Origin: Burkholderiales bacterium
GTDB lineage: Bacteria; Pseudomonadota; Gammaproteobacteria; Burkholderiales; Ga0077523
DNA: 64,000 nt
Direction: 5' to 3'
NCBI GenBank assembly: GCA_019745565.1
Contig: JAIESW010000079.1
Coordinates: forward strand, 1 to 64,000
Part shown: one piece after another, positions 22,151 through 31,475 of the stretch
Layout: every line of letters begins with the position of its first letter
How positions within the stretch are numbered: position 1 is the stretch's first letter
Position numbers and translations under genes: made by a program
The notes under the pieces: model-generated
The model's input: the letters and a program-made list of their open reading frames with translations, nothing else
The model's database searches: none
Told to the model about the DNA's origin: nothing

Positions 22151-22521
22151 CAGACGAGATCCAGCGCGTGCCGCTTGAGCGCGTCGAACGGAACGACGTC
22201 GAGCGCCCTGCGATGGGTCGCGGCCAGGATGACGGGCGGCGCCACGCCGGCGGCATAGGCCTCGGCCCAGCGGGCGGCACACAGGCACCATTGATCGCCG
22301 GGCTTGAGACCGGGGAATGCAGCCTCCGGGACGGCGGTGACGAGGTCGTTACCGTGCGCGGCTGAGTAGTCCAGGAACTCGCGGGTGATCCGGGCACAGA
22401 CCACATGGGCGCCGCGATCCTCCGGCCCGGTCGCGCAACTGCCGGTCCGATAGAACCCCGTCAACGGATCCAGACAGCAGGGCGCCAGCGGTTCGCCGAA
22501 GACGTTGCTTGCGTCGTCCAT
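22150..22521 (-). CDS. DUF2237-family protein
   Basis: This 123-residue protein is recognised by NVFGEPLAPCCLDPLTGFYRTG (residues 6-27, landmarks NVFG and TGFYRTG), the ending of an ACARIT-like block (VCARITREFLDYS) and PGDQWCLCAARWAEA. The conserved cysteines suggest metal binding, but no function is established. It is translationally coupled to the downstream exonuclease. Confidence 0.85.
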   Translation of the reverse strand: MDDASNVFGEPLAPCCLDPLTGFYRTGSCATGPEDRGAHVVCARITREFLDYSAAHGNDLVTAVPEAAFPGLKPGDQWCLCAARWAEAYAAGVAPPVILAATHRRALDVVPFDALKRHALDLV

Positions 22522-22859: not shown

Positions 22860-22888
22860 GGCCGGGGCGACGATAGCCAAAGGCGCTT

Positions 22889-22933
22889 GACGCGGCGGAC
22901 GCGGCGGACGCGGCGGACGCGGCGGACACGGCG
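22889..22933. repeat. Tandem repeat of five 9-nt units (GACGCGGCG)
   Basis: Four perfect GACGCGGCG units and a fifth GACACGGCG lie head to tail upstream of the small membrane protein. The unit is the same as in the inverted repeats at 28717-29335 and 31358-31458. No inverted partner is seen here. Confidence 0.9.
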
Positions 22934-23025
22934 GGAACACAATACCCAATGACGGCGGGTTCGGGTTTCCGCCGCGTTGAGAGTTTCTGCCAGGTGGGAA
23001 GCAACCATCGGGATCACGGGGACGG

Positions 23026-28680: not shown

Positions 28681-28716
28681 GGGGTCACAGAGGGTGGCTG
28701 CTCGATTCGGAGAAAG

Positions 28717-28744
28717 GCGATCAACGCGGCGGACGCGGCGGAAA
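28717..28744. repeat. Left inverted repeat of the GxxExxY element
   Basis: GCGATCAA is followed by two GACGCGGCG-type units and GAAA. It is the reverse complement of most of 29300-29335, and it matches exactly the left arm at 31358-31385. Confidence 0.85.
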
Positions 28745-28815
28745 GTCAAAGGCCATAAGCAACGGATTCGGGGCGCGCAAACCAGGCCTCCGTCGTCCGC
28801 GTGAGGCTGCGGTGG

Positions 28816-29293
28816 TCATAGGCGATAGACGATGCGCTTCACCGCATCGCGCATATGAACGACATTGAAATTCAGGAGCAAACCAAGACGGCTGCCGGTC
28901 AACTTCAAGTATGTCAGCACTTGGGCTCCATGGATGAGGAGCACCCGCTCGATCGATTTTGATTTCGACAATGAGATTGTCCGCGACGAGCAAGTCGACG
29001 CGAAAGCCGCCTTCCAGCTCTACTCCGTCGTACTGCACCGGCAAGGCAACTTGCCTGCGGACGGGGATGCTCATCTTTGCGAGTTCGTGCACCAGACAGA
29101 TTTCGTAGACGCTCTCTAGAAGCCCCGGGCCGAGCGTGGAATGCACTTGGAACGCTCCGTCGATCACACGGGTCGCTAAGTGGTCGAGTTCTGCCTTGGT
29201 GAGCGCTTCGCCGCTTCCGGATTGCACGATGGTCTCCACCTTGAGCATTCCTTCGGCTGATCCGGGAACCTGGATGTACGCCGGATCAATCAT
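28816..29293 (-). pseudogene. GxxExxY-family (PD-(D/E)XK-like) protein, frameshifted
   Basis: The first 110 residues match GxxExxY proteins: GLLESVYE (the naming motif), VRRQVALPVQYDGVEL and FRVDLLVADNLIVEIK, whose D and ExK are PD-(D/E)XK nuclease-type catalytic positions. After IVEIK the frame is lost. If one A is removed from the AAAA run (28957-28960 on the other strand), translation continues SIERVLLIHGAQVLTYLKL and ends NVVHMRDAVKRIVYRL at the stop 28816-28818. This gives a normal-looking protein of 158 residues. Uncorrected, the frame runs on to 28721 as a nonsense tail. The gene sits between inverted 9-nt-unit repeats. A sequencing error in the homopolymer is possible. Confidence 0.85.
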
Positions 29294-29299
29294 AAGGGG

Positions 29300-29335
29300 T
29301 TTTCCGCCGCGTCCGCCGCGTCCGCCGCGTTAATC
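29300..29335. repeat. Right inverted repeat of the GxxExxY element
   Basis: This 36-base stretch has three reverse-complement units (CCGCCGCGT repeated) and ends TTAATC. It is inverted relative to 28717-28744, with one more unit and one mismatch at the outer end. Confidence 0.85.
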
Positions 29336-29433
29336 GGAAGTTCGACCCTCATCTGACATGCACGTGCAATTCGGCCGACGGCCCATCGGATCACCGGCAC
29401 ATTCACCGAGGTCCTCTGCGTTGAGAGCTGCAG

Positions 29434-31357: not shown

Positions 31358-31458
31358 GCGATCAACGCGGCGGACGCGGCGGAAAACCTTGAGACCTGAA
31401 CCCCAGGGCCTTCCTCTACAGGGTTTTGCCTTTCCGCCGCGTCCGCCGCGTTGATCGC
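31358..31458. mobile_element. Miniature inverted-repeat element (101 bp, 28-bp perfect arms)
   Basis: The arms 31358-31385 and 31431-31458 are perfect reverse complements of 28 bases, each containing two GACGCGGCG-type units and ending in GCGATC. The 45-base centre has no ORF. The left arm equals the left arm of the GxxExxY locus at 28717. It lies between the FMN-binding gene and a convergent aldolase-type gene, and could also act as a terminator. Confidence 0.75.
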
Positions 31459-31475
31459 CTTTCCCTCGAAGGCTC

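Follow-up and report, generated by a model that had tools for sequence, protein, structure and literature searches.

GxxExxY-family genes between inverted arms of short tandem units: an apparently undescribed class of hairpin-bounded cassettes

The window, the whole 64,000-nucleotide stretch of Burkholderiales DNA analysed here, contains a gene of the GxxExxY family enclosed by two inverted arms with a 9-nt repeat unit, GACGCGGCG (Table 1). This arrangement had been proposed in the first-pass annotation and is confirmed by the profile matches and by the complementarity of the arms. The gene scores 86.4 bits against TIGR04256 (curated cut-off 35) and 82.6 bits against PF13366 (cut-off 22), the latter being its sole match in a Pfam scan. 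Over 39 nt (28706-28744 against 29301-29339) the arms are 79% complementary, with 96% over the inner 25 nt and weak pairing of the outer bases of the left arm. The claim of a single-gene unit holds for the architecture but not for an intact gene. Two frames are needed to match the profile, one for positions 2-76 and one for positions 74-116; they overlap at 28955-28962, and a T run within this overlap is one base longer than in the sister species G001, whose 165-aa copy is intact. The break falls between the ExK and Q motifs, and the 28817 end of the gene lies in the shifted frame. The G001 copy carries GxxExxY, D, ExK and Q in one intact frame, while the window copy, frameshifted after ExK, is a pseudogene.

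Table 1. Coordinates of the cassette and of the gene-less elements in the window
Feature	Position	Strand	Basis
Left inverted-repeat arm (downstream arm of gene)	28706..28744	+	Repeat search, core census; GCGATC AACGCGGCG GACGCGGCG GAAA
GxxExxY (TIGR04256 / PF13366) nuclease gene	28817..29293	-	Profile matches, intact G001 orthologue
TTTT run (AAAA on gene strand), one extra base vs sister species	28957..28960	-	Frame matches, G001 comparison
Right inverted-repeat arm (upstream arm of gene), three 9-nt units	29300..29339	+	Repeat search
Gene-less element, arms as in cassette, perfect long hairpin	31358..31459	.	Core census, fold, orthologous-site comparison
Third gene-less element in window	22882..22984	.	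Core census

The 101-bp gene-less element with the same arms, reported 2 kb from the cassette, is confirmed and forms a single long hairpin (z -10.6). The third element has an amplified left arm of about five 9-nt units and a short right arm of one; such lopsided arms suggest that the number of units changes by slippage. No Rfam family matched between positions 22500 and 32500 of the window. Across the genome a 20-nt arm core has 114 matches at ≤3 mismatches, compared with 8 for the reversed control, and a census based on these pattern matches gives about 50 palindromic arm elements alongside one GxxExxY gene. The element first described as an empty derivative is thus not a single one, the gene-less form being the norm. 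The elements share the outer consensus AAGCGCTCA-ACGCGG...CCGCGT-TGAGCGCTT, carry 1 to 5 9-nt units per arm and have unrelated loops. As copies occur genome-wide and their loops vary, an origin solely by local deletion of the window gene was rejected. Thirty-seven elements were paired automatically, with a median of 79 bp from core to core and with a within-locus arm similarity that is inflated because arms were selected by similarity; 35 were usable in later tests. In these 35, outer direct repeats indicative of a target-site duplication were as frequent as in mispaired controls (5.7% vs 5.0%). A 10-bp repeat at one location, site C, is tempting as a target duplication but not general. A GTAG/CGTC tag was present at 3/70 element ends, against 16/70 in the background.

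In an alignment of 45 GxxExxY sequences the E of the name-giving motif, a D, E-x-K and Q-x3-Y are fully or almost fully conserved, and together they are the predicted RecB/Cas4 catalytic set (E, D, ExK, QxxxY). The structure model (pLDDT 95) has a RecB-type PD-(D/E)XK fold; a sequence homologue was not found in the PDB. Among the re-examined Foldseek matches the best is Cas4 SSO0001 (4ic1; E 4e-4, Z 10.2, 97 residues, 3.2 Å), followed by a weaker match to archaeal Hjc resolvases (1gef; Z 7.9, 84 residues, 2.9 Å), for which a Z near 8 may reflect the common fold alone. Fold and D...ExK...QxxxY motif set thus resemble those of Cas4 / RecB nucleases and Hjc. In contrast to Cas4, the GxxExxY protein is much shorter, lies outside CRISPR loci and lacks the set of four conserved cysteines of the Fe-S type, a single Cys being found among the invariant columns of the 45 sequences. 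A nuclease resembling Hjc would pair naturally with an inverted repeat that has been extruded. The Rpn / YhgA-like 'transposase_31' proteins are also PD-(D/E)XK nucleases; one report describes them as promoting RecA-independent transfer (PMC5350276), a later one as toxin-antitoxin anti-phage systems (PMC10327210). They belong to different Pfam families, and neither PF04754 nor PF12784 (Rpn / Transposase_31) was matched by the window gene in the Pfam scan, which returned PF13366 only.

To see how general the arrangement is, flanking repeats were scored at GxxExxY genes of two collections, one of 300 order-level genomes (43 of them carriers) and one of genome contigs that represent about 20 phyla, with archaea among them, by comparing 170 nt upstream with the reverse complement of 170 nt downstream (threshold score ≥28). 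Inverted repeats flank 107/127 loci (84%) but 24/4394 shifted same-locus controls (0.5%; odds ratio 974), a strong enrichment that bears out the expectation of the first-pass annotation. Most of the 20 loci below the threshold have arms by eye, where spacers are longer, arms stand in tandem or the contig ends. The repeat unit, in general of 9-10 nt, measures 8-10 nt in 187/206 arms. Arm sequences vary between loci (for example ACCGCAGAGACGCAGAGGCGCAGAG, ACCACGAATTAACACGAATGAACACGAAT and ACCGCCAAGACGCCAAGAACGCCAAG), with (A)ACC-R-C as a common cap and a constant polarity, the purine-rich arm always lying upstream of the gene. Several copies in the order-level collection are disrupted by a frameshift or stop, as expected of a gene that is dispensable to the host. 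The family was found in 0/50,697 phage records, in 8 plasmid records and, in the contig scan, on one viral contig, and on these counts GxxExxY as a phage or plasmid cargo was rejected. A public MAG titled Bordetella parapertussis (L216) has a GxxExxY locus whose protein is identical to that of G080; its title is probably wrong.

The arms match the protein that they enclose. Units ending in GAT/AAT occur in 16/16 scored members of two deep clades of the protein tree and in 3/91 others, while 88/91 members outside these clades have units ending in GAG/AAG. Protein identity correlates with arm similarity (Mantel r 0.40, 0/2000). When arms were shuffled among the copies within each genome, the match was equalled in 1/5000 cases, or 3/5000 with same-site relatives excluded; hence, the arm type is not explained by the host genome. 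Gene and arms thus travel as one unit across phyla, with an arm type that fits the protein clade. The gene-less copies follow the gene as well. In the window genus two species with the cognate gene have 83 and 97 arm matches, G005, whose GxxExxY gene lies between arms of another type, has 7, and nine other species have 0-3. In a second genus the counts are 59-157 in four carriers versus 7-36 in eight others, 3/8 of which were checked by family search. At least five generic arm motifs are present in 24/43 carriers but 8/257 non-carriers among the 300 genomes (odds ratio 39, P 3e-17; at genus level P 4e-8), a comparison in which host relatedness is partly controlled; the result within the window genus represents one event. 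Where the gene occurs, gene-less copies of its cognate arm type are therefore numerous, and they are rare in congeners without it.

These features recall the REP/RAYT system and REPINs, in which the gene always lies between inverted palindromic repeats, many gene-less copies are mostly intergenic, palindrome and protein co-vary, and a large target duplication is absent (PMC2817692, PMC3116915, PMC3733652). The GxxExxY cassettes share the position of the gene, the dispersed gene-less copies, the co-variation of arm and protein and the lack of a large target duplication. They differ in that the protein is a PD-(D/E)XK nuclease and not a Y1/HUH transposase, the Pfam scan of the window gene having shown no Y1 (HUH) domain (Y1_Tnp), and in that the arms are tandem arrays of 9-10-nt units, capped by ACC-R-C and devoid of a GTAG or CGTC tag. 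Although the logic is alike, membership in REP/RAYT was rejected on the enzyme (PF13366 only) and on the missing tag. Like classical IS and MITEs, the cassettes end in inverted repeats and vary between presence and absence at orthologous sites, but they lack the target-site duplication.

On balance we favour the reading that the hairpin-bounded cassette (arm, GxxExxY gene, inverted arm) is an autonomous element of the REP-like kind, with a Cas4-like nuclease that acts on the element's own hairpin, the short gene-less hairpins being its presumed non-autonomous relatives. The minimal RecB/Cas4-type PD-(D/E)XK nuclease would recognise its own arm as a hairpin or cruciform and would cut either at the arm or at the insertion point. 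The element may then enter intergenic DNA as a copy that leaves no target duplication, in many cases at the stop codon that ends the upstream gene. The cassette gene probably has no promoter of its own and would be transcribed from the host operon; such reliance would lead to sense orientation, as insertions elsewhere would not last. Ageing copies would decay to bare hairpins, a process that the window copy appears to be undergoing. We infer that the nuclease mobilises the element from the co-variation of arm and protein and from the gene-less expansions that track the gene. The eight genomes that are rich in arm motifs and lack a GxxExxY match count against this reading. The pair of autonomous element and non-autonomous relative suggested at the outset is partly supported: the generality of the repeats and the alleles described below speak for it, while the lack of target duplication and the age of several sites do not suit a simple transposon.

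Orthologous sites show occupied, gene-less and empty alleles, in agreement with the presence/absence anticipated for a mobile element, while the target duplications anticipated together with it stay at the control level. At the site of the window cassette, a cassette is present in G001 but missing from G005, G006, G008, G002 and G049; the gene-less element 2 kb away is present in G001 and absent at the orthologous place in G005. In the genus of G153, the exact spot between trpD and trpC (gene names taken from translations) is occupied by one cassette in three species, by a different cassette in one, by a bare hairpin in three and by a decayed hairpin in one. In two further species the spot holds a toxin-antitoxin-like module without arms (L290-L296), so inserts of several kinds are drawn to this site. 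For two dispersed hairpins of G153 the orthologous positions in G025 are cleanly empty, and at one site other species carry heptamer-type hairpins. At the intergenic sites A, D and E (L314-L337) the hairpins, of the 9-nt or the heptamer type, differ by species, and some are nested. Different hairpins at orthologous sites suggest fast turnover or insertion hot spots. On the other hand, most site groups are monophyletic in the protein tree (ribF-ileS-like, macAB-like, the Nostoc site and others), and several sites are common to different families and form clades. Many insertions are thus old and vertically kept, which argues against rampant jumping.

The shared use of one spot could also be explained by homing, in which hairpins spread by other means and reside at preferred sites, and the nuclease cuts a gene-less hairpin at its loop or base, so that recombination over the arms copies the gene into it. 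The four states between trpD and trpC within one genus, the three different hairpins in three species at site E and a gene tree that forces at least two occupancy changes at trpD/trpC fit this explanation. Homing alone leaves unexplained the approximately 50:1 excess of gene-less copies in the window genome and their scarcity in congeners without the cognate gene, and we consider it unlikely.

The cassettes are placed in a particular way within operons. With neighbouring genes called by a simple ORF finder, the GxxExxY gene is sense to co-directional neighbours in 71/83 cases and antisense in 12 (P 2e-11). At 16/60 scorable loci the start of the arm coincides exactly with the upstream stop codon (TGAACCGC, TAACCGC), and at the remaining ones mostly ≤35 nt past it. 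A known precedent is the intervening sequence (IVS) of Coxiella 23S rRNA, where an ORF for a four-helix-bundle protein lies in a 28-bp stem with heptamer repeats that is excised by RNase III (PMC4990558). Like the IVS with an S23p ORF (TIGR02436), the GxxExxY cassettes place a small ORF within the loop of a long stem built from short tandem repeats, and the two share decay of the ORF to relics and insertion in transcribed DNA. The protein family is a different one, and the cassettes occur between protein genes instead of within rRNA. Assignment of the window element to 23S IVS / S23p was rejected on its intergenic location between protein genes, its GxxExxY ORF and the lack of an Rfam match. 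TIGR02436 (S23p/IVS family) genes of the same order (L226-L255) have periodic inverted arms in 26/30 loci versus 4/394 controls, with a period of 7 or 14 in 42/52 arms, at intergenic loci mostly inside operons. These cassettes share the architecture of the GxxExxY cassettes and differ in unit length, heptamers taking the place of the 9-10-nt units. A DUF559 (PF04480) endonuclease-like gene (L313:296-730, + strand) adjoins dispersed inverted repeats of the CCCTCTCCCCAACCCTCTCCC type, as do further DUF559 loci (L305-L308, L311, L312).

The IVS precedent suggests an RNA-level explanation, in which the arms pair in the operon transcript, RNase III excises the gene and the element is tolerated on that account, its spread being a separate matter. 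The strong sense orientation in operons, the placement on or just past the upstream stop codon and the similar position of TIGR02436 genes with heptamer arms agree with it. Dependence on host promoters would equally give sense orientation, however, and excision from RNA covers tolerance and orientation but neither the matching of arm and protein nor the genome-wide gene-less expansions; as an account of the cassettes it seems improbable to us. That ordinary REP-like hairpins are moved by the host or by a REP transposase and GxxExxY hitchhikes with another role, such as defence, is very improbable: eight genomes are rich in arm motifs without a GxxExxY match and comparable hairpins surround unrelated small proteins (TIGR02436, DUF559), but within genomes the arm sequence follows the protein clade, the GTAG/CGTC tag is lacking at the element ends, and near-absence from phages and rarity on plasmids are unlike typical defence genes.

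The autonomous, nuclease-driven cassette remains our preferred reading, and the periodic arms at TIGR02436 genes indicate that hairpin cassettes may be a guild with several proteins, of which DUF559 is possibly the third family. A wider proposal, which we put forward tentatively and with the chances slightly against it, is that GxxExxY is the enzyme of a new bacterial and archaeal mobile class, a Cas4/Hjc-like nuclease that would copy hairpin cassettes of 9-10-nt units and their gene-less relatives without target duplication, within a guild of small proteins (GxxExxY, the four-helix-bundle S23p, DUF559) each owning a repeat type. GxxExxY proteins are annotated by motif only, and in the literature reached by full-text search two papers name them, one of these in passing; the arm sequences were not found by full-text search. 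The cassettes apparently are an undescribed class and look like widespread small mobile DNA with GxxExxY as its core. With cognate inverted repeats linked to it across about 20 phyla, including archaea, the GxxExxY family gains a testable function, and the link explains many dispersed repeats of the ACCACAGAGG/ACCGCAAAGG type. If the proposal is true, a new enzyme class would join the proteins that spread REP-like DNA, and the spread of orphan palindromes without a transposase becomes a directly testable question.
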